Assembly (NCBI RefSeq): GCF_014062315.1
Contig: NZ_JACGLT010000019.1
Location: 1-64,000, forward strand
Reading direction: 5' to 3'
DNA from: Gelidibacter maritimus
Lineage (GTDB): Bacteria > Bacteroidota > Bacteroidia > Flavobacteriales > Flavobacteriaceae
DNA: 64,000 nt
Notes under the pieces: generated by a model
Seen by the model: only the letters and a program-made list of their open reading frames with translations
Databases searched by the model: none
What the model was told of the DNA's origin: nothing
Translations under genes and position numbers: made by a program
Shown here: positions 15,408 to 24,894 of the stretch, piece after piece
Layout of the letters: every line of letters starts with the position of its first letter
Numbering within the stretch: position 1 is the stretch's first letter

Positions 15408-16223
15408 ATGGAAAGATTACCTAAAGTTGCAATACCTGCAATTATTGCAGCCATTGTTTTAATTATAATTCTCGCCAAATCAGCGGTGACGGTAGAGTCA
15501 GGGCAGGCAGGCGTATTATATAAAACCTTCGGAGGCGGAGTAGTTACTGATGAACCAGTGCTTGGAGAAGGATTTCATATTATAGCGCCTTGGAACAAAG
15601 TATTTATTTATGAAGTAAGACAACAAGAAATTTTAGATAAAATGAGTGTCCTATCCTCAAACGGATTGGATATTAAATTGGAAGCATCCGTTTGGTTCCA
15701 ACCAGCCTATCAAAACTTAGGAAAATTACACCAAGAAAAAGGGGAAATGTACAAAGAGCGTATCTTGCTCCCGGCCATTCGTTCCGCTGCAAGAAGTGTT
15801 GTGGGTAGATATACGCCTGAGCAGTTGTACTCCAGTAAGCGTGATGCCATTCAGCAGGAAATCTTTGAAGAGACCCAAAAATTTGTAGAAGATCAATACA
15901 TCCAATTGAATGAGGTTTTGGTGCGAGATGTAACCTTGCCACCAACAATCAAAGATGCGATAGAGCGTAAATTGAGACAAGAACAAGAGTCCTTGGAATA
16001 TGAGTTTAGATTGGTTACGGCATCTAAAGAAGCTGAAAAAGTTATCATCGAGGCACAAGGTAAAGCAGATGCCAACAAAATTTTGAGTGCCTCTTTAACA
16101 GAGAAAATCCTTCAAGATAAAGGTATTGAAGCTACAGTAAAGTTGTCTGAATCTAATAATAGCAAAGTGATTGTTATTGGTTCAGGAGATTCCGGATTGC
16201 CCATTATATTAGGAAACCAGTAA
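15408..16223 (+). CDS. Prohibitin-like SPFH-domain membrane protein
   Basis: A 271-residue SPFH/PHB protein with one N-terminal membrane helix (about residues 8-27), then VESGQAGVLYKTFGG, the core domain and a long charged coiled coil (about 165-230: REQESLEYEFRL onward) ending in a Gly-rich tail. It resembles mitochondrial prohibitin and bacterial HflC/HflK-type scaffolds that form large rings in the membrane and modulate proteases or lipid domains. No protease gene is adjacent. It lies 21 bases after the VWA-like gene and is probably in the same transcript. Confidence 0.88.
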   Translation: MERLPKVAIPAIIAAIVLIIILAKSAVTVESGQAGVLYKTFGGGVVTDEPVLGEGFHIIAPWNKVFIYEVRQQEILDKMSVLSSNGLDIKLEASVWFQPAYQNLGKLHQEKGEMYKERILLPAIRSAARSVVGRYTPEQLYSSKRDAIQQEIFEETQKFVEDQYIQLNEVLVRDVTLPPTIKDAIERKLRQEQESLEYEFRLVTASKEAEKVIIEAQGKADANKILSASLTEKILQDKGIEATVKLSESNNSKVIVIGSGDSGLPIILGNQ

Positions 16224-16314
16224 TGCATACTGGAATGCGTGTTTAAAAATTTTTAATAGAAGTATTAGGATTGTAAGATTATTTTTTAAATATTTGTAAA
16301 ACACAAAATAAGAC

Positions 16315-16371
16315 ATGAACTTTATTCAATCACATCATCACCATCATCATATTTGCACTCAAGCGAACTAA
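16315..16371 (+). CDS. hisL: His operon leader peptide (18 aa, six consecutive His)
   Basis: ATG AAC TTT ATT CAA TCA is followed by six His codons (16333-16350), then ATT TGC ACT CAA GCG AAC TAA. Six adjacent His codons in an 18-residue ORF, 156 bases upstream of hisG and just before a strong terminator hairpin, identify a leader peptide for transcription attenuation. When charged His-tRNA is scarce, ribosomes would stall on the His run. The gene is too short for routine gene callers. The name hisL is given by role, not by sequence homology to enterobacterial HisL. Confidence 0.9.
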   Translation: MNFIQSHHHHHHICTQAN

Positions 16372-16393
16372 GGATGTATTGAATAAAATCAAG
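16321..16393 (+). promoter_or_regulatory. Anti-attenuator pairing segments of the his leader
   Basis: TTTATTCAAT (16321-16330), inside the leader peptide just before the His codons, is perfectly complementary to ATTGAATAAA (16378-16387). The second segment overlaps AAATCAAG (16386-16393), an exact copy of AAATCAAG in the right arm of the terminator (16415-16422). The terminator's left arm could therefore pair with either copy. A ribosome stalled on the His codons would cover the first segment and free the upstream copy, favouring read-through. The pairing is seen in the sequence; the switch is inferred. Confidence 0.65.
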
Positions 16394-16399
16394 ATATTT

Positions 16400-16432
16400 A
16401 AAAACCGTTTGAGTAAATCAAGCGGTTTTTTC
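16400..16432 (+). terminator. His operon attenuator (rho-independent terminator)
   Basis: AAAACCGTTTGA (16401-16412) pairs with TCAAGCGGTTTT (16418-16429) through 12 base pairs with one wobble, over a five-base loop, and ends in a T run. It lies between the His-rich leader peptide and hisG, which is the classical attenuator position. Confidence 0.9.
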
Positions 16433-16506
16433 ATTTCTGCAAAAGCGGGAATTTTACTCCAAATAGATTTACTCCGACAAAACTTAAGTTTAATTAAAAA
16501 AGACAG

Positions 16507-16518
16507 CCACTCCCGTGG
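16507..16518 (+). repeat. CCAC-TCCC-GTGG hairpin ahead of hisG
   Basis: Four-base-pair stem with a four-base loop ending eight bases before the hisG ATG. A related imperfect palindrome TTCTGC-AAAA-GCGGGAA is at 16435-16451. Similar in form to the hairpin before efp. Confidence 0.35.
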
Positions 16519-16526
16519 ACACTAAG

Positions 16527-17384
16527 ATGAGTAAATTGAAAATAGCAGTACAGAAATCAGGTCGTTTGCACGACGATTCCATGAAAATCCTCAAGGACGT
16601 AGGGATTTCAATAGACAATGGTAAAGATCAGCTTAAAGCCTCAGCCAAAAACTTTCCTTTGGAGGTATTTTATCTTCGTAATGGGGATATTCCACAATAT
16701 TTACGCGATGGCGTTGTAGATGCGGCTATTATCGGTGAGAATATTTTGGTGGAAAAAGGCGCAGATATTTCCGTTGTAGAAAAATTAGGTTTCTCCACAT
16801 GTAAAGTGTCCATAGCGGTTCCAAATTCGTTTAAGTATAGCGGTATCAGGGACCTGGATGGCAAACGGATTGCCACATCTTACCCGAATACCGTTCAGAA
16901 GTTTCTGGATCAGCATACCATTGATGCCCAATTGCATATTATCAACGGTTCGGTTGAAATTGCACCAAATATCGGTCTTGCTGATGCTATTGTCGATATC
17001 GTTTCAAGCGGAAGTACCTTGTTTAAGAATAATCTAAAAGAAGTAGAGGTGTTGTTGACATCTGAAGCGGTTTTAGCGGCATCACCTTTGATTTCCGTTG
17101 AGAACGAAGCAGTCTTAAAACGATTGCAATTTCGATTTCAATCGGTACTCAAAGGTCGACAGTCTAAATATGTACTTTTAAATGCACCAAACGATAAACT
17201 TGATAAAATTATAAGCGTTCTCCCTGGAATGCGTAGTCCGACCGTGTTGCCTTTGGCACAAGAGGGTTGGAGCTCCATACACTCGGTCATCAATAAGCAT
17301 GAGTTTTGGGAAGTTATTGACGAATTAAAAGCCAATGGTGCCGAAGGGATTTTAGTTTGCCCTATTGAAAACATGGTTATTTAA
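16527..17384 (+). CDS. hisG: ATP phosphoribosyltransferase HisG (long form)
   Basis: First and feedback-controlled step of histidine synthesis: joins ATP and PRPP to phosphoribosyl-ATP. At 285 residues it is the long form, with a C-terminal regulatory domain (about 215-285) that needs no HisZ partner. Visible landmarks are KSGRLHDDSMKIL near the start, GENILVE and the PRPP-site-like DIVSSGSTL. ATG 16527 was chosen over an in-frame GTG at 16515 that sits inside a hairpin. It is the first gene after the attenuator. Confidence 0.96.
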   Translation: MSKLKIAVQKSGRLHDDSMKILKDVGISIDNGKDQLKASAKNFPLEVFYLRNGDIPQYLRDGVVDAAIIGENILVEKGADISVVEKLGFSTCKVSIAVPNSFKYSGIRDLDGKRIATSYPNTVQKFLDQHTIDAQLHIINGSVEIAPNIGLADAIVDIVSSGSTLFKNNLKEVEVLLTSEAVLAASPLISVENEAVLKRLQFRFQSVLKGRQSKYVLLNAPNDKLDKIISVLPGMRSPTVLPLAQEGWSSIHSVINKHEFWEVIDELKANGAEGILVCPIENMVI

Positions 17385-17429
17385 GTTATATCGTTACTAT
17401 ATATTCGGAAGTATTAAAAATAATTAAGA

Positions 17430-18716
17430 ATGCAAATCATAAAAAACCCAAATAGAGCCTCTTGGTCAGAGCTTATTAAAAGACCAACGCAATCTATTGA
17501 AACCATTGAAGACACCGTTGTTCAGATTTTTGATGATGTGAAAAGAAATGGTGACGTCGCCATCCAAAAATACACTGCGCTTTTTGATGGTATAGATACT
17601 ATAATAACTGAAGCCTCAGAAAATGAAATAAATGCGGCTTCCCAAAATATACCAGAGGAATTAAAAGAAGCCATTAAGATGGCCAAACAGAATATTGAAA
17701 CCTTCCATAGATCGCAAAAAACAGATAAGATTGAAGTTGAAACCATGCCAGGTGTTCAATGCTGGCAGGAAAAACGAGCGATTGAAACAATTGGTCTATA
17801 TATTCCCGGTGGTACTGCCCCTTTGTTCTCTACAGTATTAATGCTTGCTGCCCCAGCACAAATTGCAGGTTGCAAGGAGATAGTCCTTTGTACACCACCA
17901 AATAAGCAGGGCGCTATAGCTGATGAAATTCTATACACTGCACAGTTATGTGGCGTGAGTAAAATTTATAAGGTGGGCGGAATTCAAGCTATTGCTGCCC
18001 TGACCTTTGGAACTGAAACCATCCCTAAAGTTTATAAGATTTTTGGTCCAGGCAATCAATTTGTCACGGTGGCTAAACAATTGGCCACCAAGTACGGGGT
18101 GGCTATCGATATGCCTGCCGGCCCAAGTGAGCTGTTGGTTTATGCTGATGATGGGGCGAATGCTGCCTACGTGGCCTCTGACTTACTGAGCCAAGCGGAA
18201 CATGGAGCCGATAGCCAAGTGATCCTCGTTTCAAATTCGGAAGCCTTAATATCAAAAGTGGAAATTCAAATCGCAGAGCAAATTGCCGATTTGCCCAGGA
18301 ATGAAATCGCGAAAAAGGCCATTGAGAATTCGAAGTTGATCTATATTCCAAACAGTCAAGAAGCTTTAGAATTCATAAACGATTATGGTCCGGAACATTT
18401 TATTGTATGTGCAAAGAACGAATCGCACTTTGTATCGGGCATTACAAATGCGGGCTCTGTTTTTATTGGGGACTATACACCGGAAAGTGCTGGTGACTAC
18501 GCTTCCGGGACCAATCATACCTTGCCAACCAATGGCTTCAGTAAAGCTTATTCAGGCGTTAACTTGGATAGCTTTATGAAAAGCATGACCTTTCAGAAAA
18601 TAACCAAACAAGGGCTGCGGAATATTGGAACCACCATAGAACTGATGGCTGCAGCCGAAGGTTTGCAAGCTCATAAAAACGCCGTATCCATCCGATTAAA
18701 AGACATCAACTCATGA
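17430..18716 (+). CDS. hisD: Histidinol dehydrogenase HisD
   Basis: Zinc enzyme for the last two oxidations, histidinol to histidine. The 428-residue protein shows GLYIPGGTAPLFSTVLML, KVGGIQAIAALTFGTE, IFGPGNQFV, the metal-site region AEHGADSQVIL, YGPEHFIV and the C-terminal ASGTNHTLPTNG. The length matches the family. The gene overlaps hisC by four bases (ATGA), so translation is coupled. Confidence 0.97.
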   Translation: MQIIKNPNRASWSELIKRPTQSIETIEDTVVQIFDDVKRNGDVAIQKYTALFDGIDTIITEASENEINAASQNIPEELKEAIKMAKQNIETFHRSQKTDKIEVETMPGVQCWQEKRAIETIGLYIPGGTAPLFSTVLMLAAPAQIAGCKEIVLCTPPNKQGAIADEILYTAQLCGVSKIYKVGGIQAIAALTFGTETIPKVYKIFGPGNQFVTVAKQLATKYGVAIDMPAGPSELLVYADDGANAAYVASDLLSQAEHGADSQVILVSNSEALISKVEIQIAEQIADLPRNEIAKKAIENSKLIYIPNSQEALEFINDYGPEHFIVCAKNESHFVSGITNAGSVFIGDYTPESAGDYASGTNHTLPTNGFSKAYSGVNLDSFMKSMTFQKITKQGLRNIGTTIELMAAAEGLQAHKNAVSIRLKDINS

Positions 18717-19750
18717 CCATTCAAAATCTAATAAGACCTGCTATAAAAGCCTTGAAACCATATTCTTCAGCGCGTGATGAATTCCAGGGCAATACTGACA
18801 ATTTAACTTTTCTTGATGCGAATGAAAATCCGTTTGACAATGGGGTCAATCGTTACCCTGACCCACAACAAGGCAAATTAAAAGCCTTGATTTCTCAAAT
18901 AAAAGATGTTCCAACAGAAAATATTCTATTAGGGAATGGCAGTGATGAAGTTTTGGATTTGCTCATCAGAATGTTCTGTGAGCCCAATCAAGATAATATT
19001 CTGATTCTTCCACCCACCTATGGCATGTACGAAGTATTGGCTAATGTTAATGCGGTAGAAACCCTTAAAATCAATCTTTCGGAAGAAACTTTCCAACCTA
19101 AGACTGAGGAGATATTAGCGGTTGCCAATGCAAACAGTAAAATTCTGTTCTTATGCTCGCCCAATAACCCCTCTGGCAACAACCTTGAAACCTTATCAAT
19201 AGAGTTGCTATTGAAAAACTTTAAGGGTATTGTGGTAATTGATGAGGCCTATATCGATTTTTCAACTGAAGAAAGTTGGCTTTCAAGATTGAACGAATTC
19301 CCAAATCTTGTGGTGACCCAAACCTTGTCAAAGGCTTTCGGAATGGCAGGGATTCGTTTGGGAATGTGTTTTGCTTCTGCAGAAATAATAGCCACTTTAA
19401 ACAAAATAAAACCGCCTTACAATATTAACCAACTGACCCAGGAAAAAGCCATTGAAGGTCTCCGTGATAGAGGTCGTATAAAATCTCAAATTGACTGTCT
19501 TACAGAACAAAGGAACGCTTTAGTTAAAGTGTTAAAAGAGGTGAAGTTTGTTAAAATAATCTATCCATCTGAAGCTAATTTTATTATGGTTAAGGTAGAT
19601 GATGCCAATAAGCGTTATCAGCAATTAATTGAAAATGGTATTGTCATTCGCAATAGAACAACACAACCCTTATGTGAAAATTGTTTACGTCTTACCGTTG
19701 GAACCGTAGAAGAAAATAAGAAACTCATTGAAAATTTAAAAAAACTATAA
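18713..19750 (+). CDS. hisC: Histidinol-phosphate aminotransferase HisC
   Basis: PLP enzyme converting imidazole-acetol phosphate and glutamate to histidinol phosphate. The 345-residue protein has the NENPFDN start region, GNGSDEVLDLLI, CSPNNPSGN, VIDEAYIDF and the PLP-binding Lys in TLSKAFGMAGIRLG. It starts inside the end of hisD and is followed after 12 bases by hisB. Confidence 0.96.
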   Translation: MTIQNLIRPAIKALKPYSSARDEFQGNTDNLTFLDANENPFDNGVNRYPDPQQGKLKALISQIKDVPTENILLGNGSDEVLDLLIRMFCEPNQDNILILPPTYGMYEVLANVNAVETLKINLSEETFQPKTEEILAVANANSKILFLCSPNNPSGNNLETLSIELLLKNFKGIVVIDEAYIDFSTEESWLSRLNEFPNLVVTQTLSKAFGMAGIRLGMCFASAEIIATLNKIKPPYNINQLTQEKAIEGLRDRGRIKSQIDCLTEQRNALVKVLKEVKFVKIIYPSEANFIMVKVDDANKRYQQLIENGIVIRNRTTQPLCENCLRLTVGTVEENKKLIENLKKL

Positions 19751-19762
19751 AGATTGAACCTG

Positions 19763-20887
19763 ATGAAAAAAGTATTATTTATTGATCGTGATGGCACCAT
19801 CATTATTGAACCGAAAGATTATCAAATTGATAGTTTTGATAAGCTTTTGTTCTATCCCAAAGTATTTAAATATTTGGGGAAAATTGCGAAAGAATTGGAT
19901 TATGAAATCGTTATGGTGACCAATCAAGATGGTTTGGGAACAGACTCATTTCCAGAAGACACCTTTTGGCCAGTGCACAATTTTATGTTAGAAACATTCA
20001 AGTCTGAAGGCATTGAGTTTAAGGAACAATTTATTGATAGAACATTTGATGAGGACAATGCAGATACACGCAAGCCCAGAACGGGTTTATTGAAACAATA
20101 CTTTTCTTATGCCTATAATTTGGAAAACTCGTTCGTTATTGGCGACCGACTGACGGATGTTGAGCTGGCAAAAAACTTAGGCTCTAAAGCGATATTTATA
20201 AACAATCCCAATTCTGATTTTATTGATGCCGATCAGGAGGCACTGAACGATTATATTGCGTTGGAAACTAAAGATTGGAAGGAGATTTACAGCTTTTTAA
20301 AAACTGAAGATCGGACCGCCAGTCTTGAGCGCAATACCAATGAAACCGAAATCGCCATCAATTTAAACCTTGACGGAACAGGAATAAGCAACATTAGTAC
20401 AGGGATTGCTTTTTTTGATCACATGTTGGACCAAATAGCGCGACATGGCCAATTGGATTTGGATATTAAGGTAAAGGGCGATTTGGAGGTGGATGAACAC
20501 CATACTATAGAAGATACGGGGATTGCTTTGGGCGAAGTGTTTGCCAAGGCTTTAGGCAATAAGTTGGGAGTAGAGCGTTACGGTTTTTGTTTGCCAATGG
20601 ACGATTGCTTAGCACAAGTGGCCATTGATTTTGGAGGTAGGAATTGGTTGGTATGGGATGCAGAATTTAAACGGGAAATGATCGGAAAGATGCCAACGGA
20701 AATGTTCTTTCACTTTTTTAAATCGTTTACCGATGGTGCCAGATGCAACTTGAATATCAAGGCAGAAGGTGACAATGAACACCATAAGATTGAAGCCATT
20801 TTCAAAGCGTTCGCAAAATCCATAAAGATGGCCATTAAGCGTGATCTGGAAAAAATGATTTTACCATCGACAAAAGGATTATTGTAG
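19763..20887 (+). CDS. hisB: Bifunctional histidinol-phosphatase / IGP dehydratase HisB
   Basis: Two-domain enzyme. The N-terminal HAD phosphatase (about residues 1-165) has DRDGTI with the nucleophile Asp, VTNQDG and [11 protein letters not shown]. The C-terminal imidazoleglycerol-phosphate dehydratase (about 180-374) has [27 protein letters not shown] and [13 protein letters not shown] with the manganese-binding His clusters. It covers steps 7 and 9 of the pathway. ATG 19763 fits the family start [11 protein letters not shown]; a TTG nine bases earlier is in frame. Confidence 0.96.
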
Positions 20888-20955
20888 AAGTCTCAACTTT
20901 CAAATGCCAAGTCTAATTGATTGAATTTAGTATTTGAATCTTTAAATTATTGGTC

Positions 20956-21537
20956 ATGAATATTGTATTAATAGACTATGGCGCAGGCAATACCAAAAGT
21001 GTTCAATTTGCATGTAATCGCTTGGGTTACGATCCTATAGTGAGTAGTCGGGCAGAAATCATTAAGGCAGCTGATAAGGTCATTTTTCCCGGTGTTGGCC
21101 ACGCCAGCAATGCAATGTCAAGACTTCAAACATCTGGATTGGATCTTTTAATTCCGACCTTGAAACAACCCGTATTAGGTATATGTTTAGGCATGCAATT
21201 ACTGTGTAATGCCACCGAAGAAGGTGCCACCAAAGGCTTGGGCATTTTTGATGTTCAGGTAAAACGGTTTTCAGACGAAGTAAAAGTCCCACAAATGGGT
21301 TGGAATAAGATTTCCAATTTAAAAACAAATTTATTTATGGGTCTTAGAAATAATGCCTATATGTATCTTGTGCACAGTTATTATGCAGAATTGTGTGATG
21401 ATACTATAGCGCAAACCCATTACGGGGTGACATATAGTTCTGCATTAAAGAAAAATAATTTTTATGGCGTCCAATTCCATCCTGAAAAGAGCAGTTTGGA
21501 GGGTGAGCATGTGTTGAGAAATTTCCTCAATTTATGA
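20956..21537 (+). CDS. hisH: Imidazole glycerol phosphate synthase, glutaminase HisH
   Basis: Class I glutamine amidotransferase that feeds ammonia to HisF. The 193-residue protein shows IDYGAGNTKS, the oxyanion-strand FPGVGHA, the nucleophile Cys in LGICLGMQLL and the His/Glu pair in QFHPEKS. ATG 20956 gives the normal start MNIVLIDYG; a TTG six bases upstream is in frame. It sits between hisB and hisA in standard operon order. Confidence 0.96.
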   Translation: MNIVLIDYGAGNTKSVQFACNRLGYDPIVSSRAEIIKAADKVIFPGVGHASNAMSRLQTSGLDLLIPTLKQPVLGICLGMQLLCNATEEGATKGLGIFDVQVKRFSDEVKVPQMGWNKISNLKTNLFMGLRNNAYMYLVHSYYAELCDDTIAQTHYGVTYSSALKKNNFYGVQFHPEKSSLEGEHVLRNFLNL

Positions 21538-21579
21538 AACCGTCAATGAAAAATCAATAATTGTAAATCGTAAAATATT

Positions 21580-22314
21580 ATGAGGATTATTCCAGCAATA
21601 GATATTATAGATGGCAAATGTGTGCGTTTGACCAAAGGTGATTATAACACCAAAAAGATATATAACGAAAACCCTTTAGAAGTTGCCAAGCAGTTTGAGG
21701 CTGCCGGAATTGAATATTTGCATTTGGTCGATTTGGATGGTGCCAAGGCAAAACATATCGTTAATTATAAAATCTTGGAGCAGATAGCTTCAAAAACAAA
21801 CTTGAAGATTGATTTTGGTGGAGGTCTAAAGTCAGATGAAGACCTTCATATTGCTTTCAATTCAGGGGCCAAACAAATTACTGGTGGCAGTATTGCGGTC
21901 AACGATTACCAGATGTTTGAGTCGTGGTTGGAGAAGTATGGCTCAACCAAAATTATTTTAGGTGCTGATTGTATGGACCGAAAAATTGCGATAAGTGGTT
22001 GGCAAGAGCAAAGTAGCTTAGAAGTGATTCCTTTTATAAAAAACTATCAAAGAAAAAATGTGCAATACGTTATCTGTACTGATATTTCAAAAGATGGGAT
22101 GCTAGAAGGACCGTCATTTGATCTGTATCGAGAAATTATAGAAGAGTGTTCAAACAGCAGTACTGATCAATCTATAAAGCTGATTGCATCTGGAGGTATA
22201 TCGCAAATTGATGAACTGCCAAAACTAAAGGATTTAGGCTGTGAAGGGGTTATTATTGGTAAGGCCATTTATGAAAACAGGATCAGCTTAAAAGAATTGG
22301 AAGAATTTTATTAG
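21580..22314 (+). CDS. hisA: Phosphoribosylformimino-AICAR-P isomerase HisA
   Basis: TIM-barrel Amadori isomerase of step 4. The 244-residue protein starts [20 protein letters not shown], with the catalytic-type Asp in PAIDI, and shows [36 protein letters not shown] (second catalytic Asp) and ASGGIS with a phosphate-binding loop. It is a paralogue of HisF. A 205-base gap with a hairpin separates it from hisF. Confidence 0.96.
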
Positions 22315-22324
22315 TGACAGTCTT

Positions 22325-22356
22325 TTTTGAAGAAACTGCAAAACAATTCTTCAAAA
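22325..22356 (+). other. Intra-operon hairpin between hisA and hisF
   Basis: TTTTGAAGAA (22325-22334) pairs perfectly with TTCTTCAAAA (22347-22356) over a 12-base loop. No T run follows, so it is not a classical terminator. The hisA-hisF gap (22315-22519) is the longest inside the operon; the hairpin may affect processing or relative expression, which is inference. Confidence 0.45.
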
Positions 22357-22519
22357 CAGAGGGTTGAACTAATCCGGCTTAAGATAATTATTGGAATAAC
22401 GAAATCTTGGACAGCAACGAATGCGAAGTTGCAAGGCAATTTTTATATAAGTTTGAAATTATAAAATCATTACATAACTAATTTACATTAATTAAAACGC
22501 TGCAATTGTAGCAAATACT

Positions 22520-23275
22520 ATGCTCACAAAACGAATCATACCTTGTTTAGATATAAAAAACGGTCGCACTGTTAAAGGTGTAAATTTTGTTAACCTTATT
22601 GACGCTGGAGATCCTGTTGCACTGGCAAAGCAATATGCTGAAAAAGGTGCGGATGAATTGGTGTTTCTTGATATTTCAGCCACTTTAGAAGGGCGTAAAA
22701 CCACATTGGAGATGGTTCTTAAAGTTGCAGAACAGGTTAATATTCCATTTACAGTCGGCGGTGGTATTTCGTCAGTAGAAGATGTTGATCTTCTCCTAAA
22801 GTCTGGTGCAGATAAGGTCTCGATCAATTCTTCTGCCGTAAAACGTCCAGAACTTATTAACGAACTTGCCGATAAATTTGGGAGCCAGTGTGTGGTGGTT
22901 GCCATTGACGCTAAACAAATAGACAATCAGTGGATTGTACATTTGGCTGGTGGTAGTATTCCAACCGAATTGGATTTATTTGAATGGGCTAAAGAGGTTG
23001 AAACTCGTGGTGCCGGCGAAATATTATTTACCTCCATGGATCATGATGGTACAAAAGATGGATTTGCCAATGAATCACTTTCGAAATTGTCAACCACCTT
23101 GAATATTCCGATTATTGCTTCTGGTGGCGCAGGTACTATTCAGCATTTTGTAGACACTTTTCAGATTGGAAAATCGGATGCTGCGCTTGCGGCCAGTGTA
23201 TTTCATTTTGGTGAAATCGAAATCGAAGATTTGAAAGAAGCACTAAAGAAAAATAATATTGAAGTAAGAATTTAA
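22520..23275 (+). CDS. hisF: Imidazole glycerol phosphate synthase, cyclase HisF
   Basis: TIM-barrel cyclase that, with HisH, makes imidazole-glycerol phosphate and AICAR. The 251-residue protein begins [20 protein letters not shown] with the catalytic Asp in CLDI, and shows [37 protein letters not shown] with the second Asp, and ASGGAGT. The length is standard. Confidence 0.97.
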
Positions 23276-23372
23276 GACTTGAACTCAAAATGTCCTTCCA
23301 AAGAATAGGCGTTGTGATGTTTTTTAGAGAAGCTCTATTAAATATTAAGAAGTCGTACAAAACAAAATAACA

Positions 23373-23966
23373 ATGAACTTAAAATTTAATTCAGAAGGTT
23401 TAATTCCTGCCATTATTCAAGATGCCACTACTAAAAATGTCCTGATGTTAGGCTATATGAATGAAGAGGCGTTTCAGAAAACCCAGGAAACCAAAAAAGT
23501 GACGTTTTATAGCAGAAGCAAGCAACGTTTATGGACTAAAGGTGAAGAGAGTGGTAATTTTTTGAATTTGGTAGATGTTAAGGTGGACTGTGATGATGAC
23601 ACACTATTGGTACAGGTGGATCCGGTAGGCCCAACCTGTCATAAAGGATCGGACACTTGTTGGGGTGAGGATAATTCGTCCAATTTTGGATTCATTTCCA
23701 AATTGGAACAGACCATACTGGAACGTCGTTCAAACGCAAAACCTGAGGACTCTTATGTTGCCTCACTTTTCTCAAAAGGCATCAACAAATTGGCTCAAAA
23801 GCTAGGCGAGGAGGCGGTGGAAGTCGTCATTGAAGCCAAAGATAATAACAATGAGCTATTTTTGAACGAGAGTGCCGATTTACTATTTCATTACCTAATG
23901 CTACTTCAGGCCAAAGGCTTTACATTGGAGGCTATTGAATCCGTTCTTAAAAATCGGGAAAAATAA
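23373..23966 (+). CDS. hisIE: Bifunctional PR-AMP cyclohydrolase / PR-ATP pyrophosphatase HisIE
   Basis: Fusion of HisI (about residues 1-105) and HisE (about 110-197), steps 3 and 2. HisI shows LMLGYMNEEAF, FYSRSKQRLWTKGEESGN, the metal-binding region DCDDDTLLVQV and GPTCHKGSDTCW. HisE shows KLAQKLGEEAVEVVIEAKD and ESADLLFHYLMLL. It is the last gene of the operon; no strong terminator was seen in the 136 bases that follow. Confidence 0.96.
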   Translation: MNLKFNSEGLIPAIIQDATTKNVLMLGYMNEEAFQKTQETKKVTFYSRSKQRLWTKGEESGNFLNLVDVKVDCDDDTLLVQVDPVGPTCHKGSDTCWGEDNSSNFGFISKLEQTILERRSNAKPEDSYVASLFSKGINKLAQKLGEEAVEVVIEAKDNNNELFLNESADLLFHYLMLLQAKGFTLEAIESVLKNREK

Positions 23967-24102: not shown

Positions 24103-24894
24103 ATGGATAAAAATTATTTTTACCTTATTACCATTCAATATTTGGGTTTTCGCTATCACGGTTGGCAAAAACAGCCCAATTTAAAAACGGTGCATTTGGT
24201 AATTGACAAAACGCTAAATTATGTCTTTAAAGGGGATAAGAAGTTTAAAAGCTTAGCCGCTGGTAGGACTGATGCTATGGTGTCTGCCAATGAAACAGCA
24301 TTTGAATTATTTATGGAAGACCCTATTGAAGACTTTGTTGGGTTTCTCGAACAATTCAACTATTATCTACCTCAGGATGTCCGTGCATTGGCGATGAGAG
24401 CAGTGGACAAGGATTTTAATGTCATCCAAAATGCGAAGCTTAAAGAATATGTTTACCTGTTTGCCCATGGTCAAAAATCGCACCCATTCTGCGCTTCCAT
24501 AATGACCACTTTTAGAGATGTCTTGGATATTGAGCTGATGAAAAAAGGTGCCAAACTTTATGAAGGCACACATAATTTCAAGGCCTTCTGTTCAAGAGTT
24601 TCTGAAAAAGGGATGTATCAGAGAACGATTGATTCTTGTGAGATCATCGAAAATACTATGTTTAATGCTAATTTTTTTCCCAAAGAATCCTTTCTGTTCA
24701 AAGTTAAGGCTGAGGGCTTTGGGTATAATCAAATTAGAGGTATGATGGGTAGCCTTGTTAGGCTCGGCAAAAATGATTTTACCTTAGATGATATTGCAAA
24801 AAGTCTATTACCAGATAGTACAGCTGTTATGGAATATATTGCACCAGCCTCCGGGCTGATATTGAACACCTTGGAATTTGATTATGAGGTATAA
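24103..24894 (+). CDS. TruA-family tRNA pseudouridine synthase-like protein
   Basis: A 263-residue TruA-fold protein: YLITIQYLGFRYHGWQKQPN near the start, the catalytic Asp in AAGRTDAMVSA (about residue 53), a TFRD segment and FKVKAEGFGYNQIRGMMGSL at the C-terminus. Standard TruA has GRTDAGVHA; here the residues after the catalytic Asp are AMVSA, so substrate choice may differ from the classical positions 38-40. It follows the his operon but has its own 136-base leader. Activity as a pseudouridine synthase is likely, the target uncertain. Confidence 0.8.
   Translation: MDKNYFYLITIQYLGFRYHGWQKQPNLKTVHLVIDKTLNYVFKGDKKFKSLAAGRTDAMVSANETAFELFMEDPIEDFVGFLEQFNYYLPQDVRALAMRAVDKDFNVIQNAKLKEYVYLFAHGQKSHPFCASIMTTFRDVLDIELMKKGAKLYEGTHNFKAFCSRVSEKGMYQRTIDSCEIIENTMFNANFFPKESFLFKVKAEGFGYNQIRGMMGSLVRLGKNDFTLDDIAKSLLPDSTAVMEYIAPASGLILNTLEFDYEV

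Follow-up and report, generated by a model that had tools for sequence, protein, structure and literature searches.

A probable histidine attenuator of Flavobacteriaceae and a possible second tier of control at the hisG start

The stretch of DNA analysed here (the window) comprises the first 64,000 nucleotides (nt) of contig NZ_JACGLT010000019.1 from Gelidibacter maritimus, and it carries a complete histidine operon preceded by a short leader with a run of His codons. Comparative sequence analysis makes it very probable both that this leader is a ribosome-mediated histidine attenuator, in which an antiterminator (helix 2:3) and a terminator (helix 3:4) exclude one another, and that a segment located beyond the terminator (segment 6) pairs with the inner arm and loop of the terminator hairpin (helix 3:6). 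Since the start of hisG is an alternative partner for segment 6 (6:start), we tentatively propose a second tier of control that acts on translation. The leader and helices 2:3, 3:4 and 3:6 are apparent from the sequences compared, and helix 1:1′, which encloses the His codons, and 6:start are apparent in part. A sequence-only reading had already placed a histidine attenuator at positions 16315-16432. That interpretation is supported, with the His leader, the terminator and an antiterminator sharing the terminator 5′ arm all conserved with covariation; its range is correct for leader and terminator and omits the segment at 16466-16478. The second pairing was missed.

In the proposed mechanism, a ribosome translating the leader when histidine is scarce would stall on the His codons and cover segment 1, leaving segment 2 free to pair with segment 3; helix 2:3 would then block the terminator 3:4, and RNA polymerase would read through into the his operon. 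When histidine is plentiful, the ribosome would proceed to the stop codon and cover segment 2, whereupon 3:4 would form and transcription would end. If no ribosome is present, segment 2 would be restrained by helix 1:1′, which is clearest in the genus Gelidibacter. In read-through RNA, those loop bases that segment 2 leaves free would offer segment 6 a toehold from which 3:6 could form. If the polymerase has escaped in spite of a folded terminator hairpin, segment 6 would instead be free to pair with the hisG start. The 3:6 state would thus correspond to an open hisG and the 3:4 state to a closed one, with masking of the start codon region serving as a translational backstop. That cells regulate the operon in this way, that the toehold acts in this order and that translation is affected are inferences.

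Conservation of the His-rich leader

Homologous operons were located through HisG in 9/9 genomes of the genus, 123/149 of the family, 73/118 of the order and 128/148 of the phylum, where the order and phylum draws include family genomes. Upstream DNA was obtained from 180 loci, of which 176 remained once duplicates (L101, L104, L105 and L112) had been excluded from later counts. Among these are 90 of the 123 family hits, made up of 30 loci that were returned and 60 of the 93 others, which were fetched (33 family genomes were left out); for order and phylum, the loci read are those returned or additionally fetched, out of all hits. Besides the four duplicates, the second set of loci (L098-L180) includes another 15 from the Flavobacteriaceae, and all counts are also split by kinship. 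A leader was scored when an open reading frame (ORF) beginning with ATG, 8-40 codons in length and with at least three His in seven codons, was present within 300 base pairs (bp) upstream of hisG. Two loci with less than 300 bp upstream were excluded per group from the comparison of leaders with shuffles.

By this definition, a His-rich leader precedes hisG in 9/9 genus loci, and the search for such leaders in other Flavobacteriaceae that the sequence-only reading had suggested finds them at 98/101 further family loci. The leader is also present at 28/30 order loci from other families, 15/16 class loci from other orders and 8/16 phylum loci from other classes, as compared with 1/172 on the antisense strand over all kinship groups. 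In the first set, 92/95 loci carry a leader; the antisense strand gives 1/95, shuffles give 0.95% and a control stretch further upstream gives 1/84. For the second set, the values are 2.0% for shuffles and 0/57 for the control stretch. All 80 of the named genomes (whose species overlap with the other sets) carry the leader. The same reading had taken loss of the His run in close relatives that keep the hairpin as an outcome that would speak against an attenuator; all nine genus genomes retain both. Weaker His clusters are visible by eye in the three family loci scored as lacking the leader (L070, L072 and L087). The leader is absent from two 0.6 Mb genomes of the order (L151 and L152), and a number of loci from other classes, among them L136, L138 and L140, lack it too. 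Five loci from one other family of the class (L162-L166) have His-rich leaders before hisG and no convincing terminator (none in two, 5-6 pairs in three), and these may represent a purely translational version.

A covariance model (R1) spanning leader to terminator, and thus excluding segment 6, finds one strong site of 120 bits in the window's own genome, the next best scoring 27 bits; there is no sign of a second operon of the his-leader type in that genome. Likewise, inspection by eye of 16 regions upstream of ilvD revealed no leader of the his type in the genus, and in the majority of genus members the stretch upstream of ilvD resembles coding sequence (by eye, with no ORF call). When R1 was applied to 20 of the 26 family genomes without a hisG match, 17/20 gave some match at E<=1, mostly weak, and the sole strong one (G034, 6e-12) is a relic. 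At this locus (L197, minus strand of G034:C11), the his operon appears to have suffered a deletion that begins near hisG codon 26 and reaches the C-terminus of a gene resembling hisIE by eye; leader and terminator persist beside it.

Mutually exclusive terminator and antiterminator

The leader RNA of the window folds more stably than expected (z = -5.4 against 200 shuffles) and includes an intrinsic terminator whose stem, taken as 12 bp in the sequence-only reading, comprises 13 pairs. A lenient finder that accepts stems from 5 pairs detected a terminator in 155/161 leader-bearing loci, 149 of them with at least 8 pairs, and the terminator helix is paired in 99.5% of alignment cells, with covariation. 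The antiterminator shares the 5′ arm of this hairpin, so that the two helices are mutually exclusive, and it covaries as well. Pairing of segment 2 with segment 3 beats shuffles at p<=0.05 in 126/155 loci that have leader and terminator (9/9 genus, 81/99 family, 22/28 order, 8/12 class and 6/7 phylum). In an alignment of 104 of 108 candidates (A1, from which L017, L066 and L106 were removed by hand, together with one identical row), 93.4% of 2:3 cells are paired, and covariation is 0.156, versus 0.102 for shuffled rows (0/500 as high) and at most 0.077 for slid ones.

The outermost 2:3 pair occurs as AU 32 times, UA 19 times and GC 9 times. Where arm 3 has C in place of T, G is found in segment 2 in 11/11 rows and in arm 4 in 10/11. 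Segment 2 and arm 4 both change with arm 3, and hence a single position tracks two partners. Outside the family, and in other orders too, 2:3 can be preserved with wholly different letters. Examples of pairings with changed letters are GGTAAGC/GCTTACC (L131 and L137), CACCACGGC/GCTGTGGTG (L149) and AGCCGG/CCGGCT (L171). Moreover, L065, L074, L081 and L088 retain CTCAAGCG, exactly or nearly, in a different reading frame, and a Gln codon (CAA or CAG) has become a stop codon in L007, L017, L053 and L079, with G-U pairing still possible. Because the motif is kept out of frame and the change from Gln to stop preserves pairing, the comparison indicates that selection at segment 2 is acting on the RNA and not on the peptide.

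Helix 1:1′ consists in the window of ten perfect pairs. In the alignment, 70.9% of its cells are paired and double changes occur at 10/10 pairs; it is significant in 9/9 genus and 42/99 family loci. To model the effect of a translating ribosome, we folded the RNA up to the terminator loop, a cut that represents co-transcriptional folding, with the ribosome footprint masked. For the window, a ribosome placed on the first His codon gives the antiterminator a predicted probability of 0.98, and one placed at the stop codon gives 0.0; without a ribosome the antiterminator has a probability of 0.33 and helix 1:1′ one of 0.65. Among 149 loci modelled, 148 form the antiterminator in the stalled state, and 127 of these also avoid it when the ribosome is at the stop codon.

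A segment beyond the terminator pairs with its arm and loop

In loci with enough spacing, the 3:6 pairing exceeds shuffles at p<=0.05 in 107/143 cases and at p<=0.01 in 102. At the former threshold it is found in 9/9 genus, 73/92 family and 24/28 order loci, and in 73/78 loci of the named set. Over 120 loci, segment 3L is predicted to pair with its own segment 6 at -15.2 kcal/mol versus -10.2 kcal/mol with partners taken from loci of different sequence. Covariation was examined in a second alignment (A2), which used 51 of 85 loci already selected for strong 3:6 and short spacing; the A2 covariation results for 3:6 and 6:start are thus conditional on this choice, and the counts against shuffles, the comparison of partners and the out-of-sample and named-set results for 3:6 are not. 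In A2, 95.2% of 3:6 cells are paired and covariation is 0.382, compared with 0.192 for shuffled and at most 0.071 for slid rows. The loop positions vary as AU 21, UA 17, CG 7 and UG 5 at one pair and AU 23 and CG 20 at another. None of these positions belongs to the terminator stem and few of them to 2:3, so that neither helix explains how they vary.

The R1 model, which is blind to segment 6, matched 13/197 genomes and provided an out-of-sample set of six sites, scoring 47 to 102 bits, from the remaining orders of the class. Five of the six carry segment 6, located 14-16 nt from hisG, with 0/300 shuffles as good; L256 is the site that lacks it. Similarly, segment 6 is 13-17 nt from the hisG ATG in 63/102 loci where 3:6 is -12 kcal/mol or stronger. 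In the window's genus this distance grows to about 40-48 nt, and in the two examples inspected a small hairpin is predicted to lie in between. In the window this hairpin is CCACTCCCGTGG (16507-16518), and a similar one is predicted in L002. The motif TTTACTC also occurs twice between terminator and hisG, at 16453-16459 and 16468-16474, and only the second copy lies within the counted segment 6. A reading of the 3/6 inverted repeat as a DNA operator was set aside, since its arms change together through several letter classes. Taken together, the comparative data support the 3:6 pairing well. Being located 3′ of the terminator, segment 6 cannot influence the polymerase that makes the termination decision.

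Segment 6 and the start of hisG

Segment 6 is complementary to the hisG start at p<=0.05 in 72/128 loci, and in 47/78 of the named set. This complementarity is significant in 72/105 loci with 3:6 versus 0/23 without it. Cells with double changes number 17, against 10.8 for shuffled rows (4/500 as high), and matched codon changes are seen as AAATT/GATTT and AAACT/GGTTT (AU:23 GC:10). Three letters that follow GAG match between terminator loop and hisG start in 46/92 loci, as compared with a permuted mean of 35.8 and maximum of 44. Models of 101 loci predict that the first ten bases of the hisG start have a median unpaired fraction of 0.22 when 3:4 is forced and 0.57 when 3:6 is forced; a control with 3:4 and a shuffled intergenic stretch gives a median of 0.49. 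The start is more open in the 3:6 state in 97/101 models, by more than 0.2 in 67. Of the features of a dual attenuator, an alternative pairing that could relieve a block at the start is represented by the covarying 3:6; for the start-blocking hairpin itself, 6:start is a candidate, with complementarity in 72/128 loci and weak covariation.

From these observations we suggest, with reserve, that the attenuator may be leak-proof. The inner arm and loop of the terminator would mimic the hisG start, and 3L would decide both whether transcription reads through and whether transcripts that escape are translated. Segment 6 would arbitrate by covering either 3L or the start region, an arrangement that may suit bacteria that do not use Shine-Dalgarno pairing. 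The translational tier as a whole is a plausible but tentative proposal.

Evidence against the model and alternative explanations

Several results weigh against the mechanism outlined above. Helix 1:1′ is significant in only 4/47 loci beyond the family. A shuffled segment 2 still pairs with segment 3 in 48% of stalled models, which makes the figure of 148/149 less striking than it appears, and the antiterminator forms without a ribosome in 50/149 models. With the full terminator present, equilibrium favours the terminator in every ribosome state; equilibrium folding of the entire leader was consequently rejected as an explanation, and antitermination must be kinetic. Among the sampled loci from other orders, 3:6 is found in 0/7 of the class and 1/7 of the phylum, the exceptions being the loci found with R1. 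In the window itself, p=0.01 for 3:6 and p=0.05 for 6:start. Because segment 6 is shared by 3:6 and 6:start, finding both at one locus does not amount to independent evidence, and some loci, such as L334, have 3:6 without significant 6:start. Covariation of 6:start is weak, with 82.1% of cells paired versus 81.0% in shuffled rows, because the coding sequence scarcely varies. Lastly, the most stable predicted full-length fold combines 3:4 with 6:start, and 3:6 is less stable by a median of 5.3 kcal/mol.

Some of these findings are what would be expected if the attenuator had a single tier, a possibility to which we give real though lesser weight. The ribosome-controlled steps, including the role of 1:1′, would then hold, and 3:6 would merely fix the read-through messenger RNA in a terminator-free form or affect its stability, leaving hisG translation untouched; that 6:start is not universal among loci with 3:6 (72/105) and barely covaries fits such a scheme. 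The position of segment 6, whose end lies 13-17 nt upstream of the hisG ATG at 63/102 loci with strong 3:6, points instead to initiation, as does the state-dependent opening of the start in 97/101 models. The tight spacing to ATG in most loci would also be accounted for if 3:6 aided translation directly, either as a helix about 15 nt upstream that keeps the A-rich initiation region open or as a loading site, with no sequestration of the start. We consider this unlikely, as it would not explain why segment 6 is complementary to the hisG start (72/128 loci) or why the matched codon changes AAATT/GATTT and AAACT/GGTTT occur. More improbable still is action in trans, whereby released leader RNA would behave as a small RNA that pairs through its terminator loop with segment 6 on his messenger RNA and controls hisG translation. 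RNA loops are usual seeds for small-RNA pairing, and 3:6 spans the loop and sits just before the start codon; but 8/13 bases of 3L in the window are held in the stem of the released hairpin, and an explanation in cis needs no extra step. Finally, the notion that the His ORF, short as it is, represents a chance frame, and that the terminator serves the gene upstream or answers to a regulatory protein, is largely refuted by the conservation of the leader across kinship groups and the significance and covariation of 2:3, and with known RNA families also giving no match in the window it can be dismissed as highly improbable.

The leader and his operon in the window

Coordinates of the features discussed are collected in Table 1. 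The 18-codon ORF with six adjacent His codons and the complete his operon (16527-23966, downstream of leader and terminator) that the sequence-only reading described are both borne out, and its attribution to a flavobacterium holds at the family level: the closest named relatives by HisG are Gelidibacter salicanalis (92% identity) and G. algens (91%), both Flavobacteriaceae. Six consecutive CAY codons are found at a single place in the window and in none of 100 dinucleotide shuffles.

Table 1. Features of the his leader and operon in the window.
Feature	Positions	Strand	Remarks
-7-like promoter element AATATTTG	16289..16296	+	18 nt 5′ of leader ATG; 5/6 letters of the flavobacterial consensus TAnnTTTG
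Leader peptide ORF MNFIQSHHHHHHICTQAN	16315..16371	+	18 codons and TAA; kept across genus and family
Segment 1 TTTATTCAAT	16321..16330	+	Pairs with 16378-16387; fold and covariation
Six adjacent His codons, CAT CAT CAC CAT CAT CAT	16333..16350	+	Read from sequence
Segment 2 ACTCAAGCG	16357..16365	+	Putative antiterminator 5′ strand; pairing with segment 3, covariation
Nested hairpin	16372..16399	+	Predicted fold, inside antiterminator when ribosome is stalled on His
Segment 1′ ATTGAATAAA	16378..16387	+	Partner of segment 1
Intrinsic terminator hairpin	16400..16430	+	Stem 16400-16412/16418-16430, 13 pairs including one G-T; 5-nt loop; T run 16426-16431
Segment 3 CGTTTGAGT	16406..16414	+	Partner of segment 2; also inner 5′ arm and loop of terminator
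Segment 3L GTTTGAGTAAATC	16407..16419	+	Inner arm, loop and first 3′-arm bases; partner of segment 6
Segment 6 GATTTACTCCGAC	16466..16478	+	3′ of terminator; pairs with 3L or hisG start
hisG start region ATGAGTAAATT	16527..16537	+	Alternative partner of segment 6
hisG	16527..17384	+	NCBIfam, TIGR00070
hisD	17430..18716	+	NCBIfam
hisC	18713..19750	+	NCBIfam
hisB (bifunctional)	19763..20887	+	NCBIfam
hisH	20956..21537	+	NCBIfam
hisA	21580..22314	+	NCBIfam
hisF	22520..23275	+	NCBIfam
hisIE	23373..23966	+	NCBIfam

A -7-like element matching at least 5/6 letters is found at 108/108 loci, yet also in 68% of shuffles, and is therefore weak evidence by itself. Its spacing to the leader ATG clusters at 14-20 nt in these loci and is most commonly 17-19 nt, from which a very short 5′ untranslated region would follow; the start site is inferred. 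The 20 nt that precede the ATG of the 108 Flavobacteriaceae leaders are mostly A-rich, with A at -3 in 61% (the window has G), and a Shine-Dalgarno-like 4-mer is present in just 4/108.

Immediately 3′ of the operon, at 24103-24894, lies truA (hisT), whose product modifies transfer RNA and influences his attenuation in Salmonella. The gene upstream of the leader (15408-16223) resembles HflC/HflK (SPFH) membrane proteins, with weak NCBIfam matches below the cut-off.

Relation to known systems

No Rfam model matches the window at its gathering score, including the proteobacterial His_leader, the T-box and the Bacteroid-trp leader (RF01692). The anatomy of the his attenuator of E. coli and Salmonella (Rfam His_leader) is textbook knowledge, and the leader described here resembles it in having a peptide with His codons and overlapping antiterminator and terminator structures before hisG. 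It differs in its sequence and in its helix layout as well as in lacking the Rfam match, and we know of no counterpart of segment 6 in the enterobacterial attenuator. The trp leader of Bacillus subtilis that is controlled by TRAP governs transcription and translation from one leader, as the present leader may do, but there the signal is sensed by a protein and not by the ribosome.

Two reports partly anticipate basic attenuation in Bacteroidota, and the attenuator that the sequence-only reading put forward as a clear case in this phylum is thus supported yet not without precedent. One is the Bacteroid-trp leader RF01692, described as a leader attenuator in Bacteroidota (PMC2864571). That leader uses Trp codons, and trpE starts soon after its terminator, with no room seen by eye for segment 6. 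Among nine loci given to Rfam, RF01692 matches only two, both of them regions that precede trpE: L236, from the window's own genome, and L227, from one family genome. A Trp-rich leader (TGGTGGTGG) and, by eye, a terminator precede trpE at L227-L231, L233, L234, L236, L237 and L240-L243, of which L227 and L236 are the two that were compared with Rfam. The other report, on Flavobacterium psychrophilum (PMC9723704), gives strong clues that amino-acid operons of this flavobacterium are attenuated through leader peptides, and notes that hisG is preceded by a conserved, structured 5′ element for which Rfam has no match; the portion of its text consulted here does not describe the helices, the antiterminator or the post-terminator element found in the present analysis.

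A parallel to the proposed second tier is provided by vmlR (PMC9226507) and tlrB (PMC6851288) of B. subtilis, where ribosome stalling controls termination and a second, translational lock operates in read-through RNA; in vmlR, a pairing in the read-through RNA would disrupt the lock, much as is proposed for 3:6. As presented in these sources, both systems sense antibiotics and sequester a Shine-Dalgarno sequence, whereas the his leader would sense an amino acid and mask the start codon region itself. The available text of a study of his regulation in Gram-positive bacteria (PMC9413887) does not contain the word Bacteroidetes, and that of one on his gene organization in the superphylum (PMC8305728) mentions attenuation once, for E. 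coli and Salmonella. Our literature search, whose coverage excluded most subscription papers and with them a 2010 comparative survey of attenuation, yielded no recognized description of a his leader with an anti-start element beyond its terminator. What appears to be new here is the conserved 3:6 pairing.

Significance

An attenuator-type His leader before hisG is nearly universal in the Flavobacteriaceae sampled and common in Bacteroidota. As the ribosomes of this group do not use Shine-Dalgarno pairing (PMC9976891, PMC6847099), leaders so widespread imply close coupling of ribosome and polymerase where such pairing does not occur. Since no Rfam family matches the his leader, it could be added as one. 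The 3:6 pairing, in turn, offers a concrete and testable case in which one RNA switch may control both termination and initiation.
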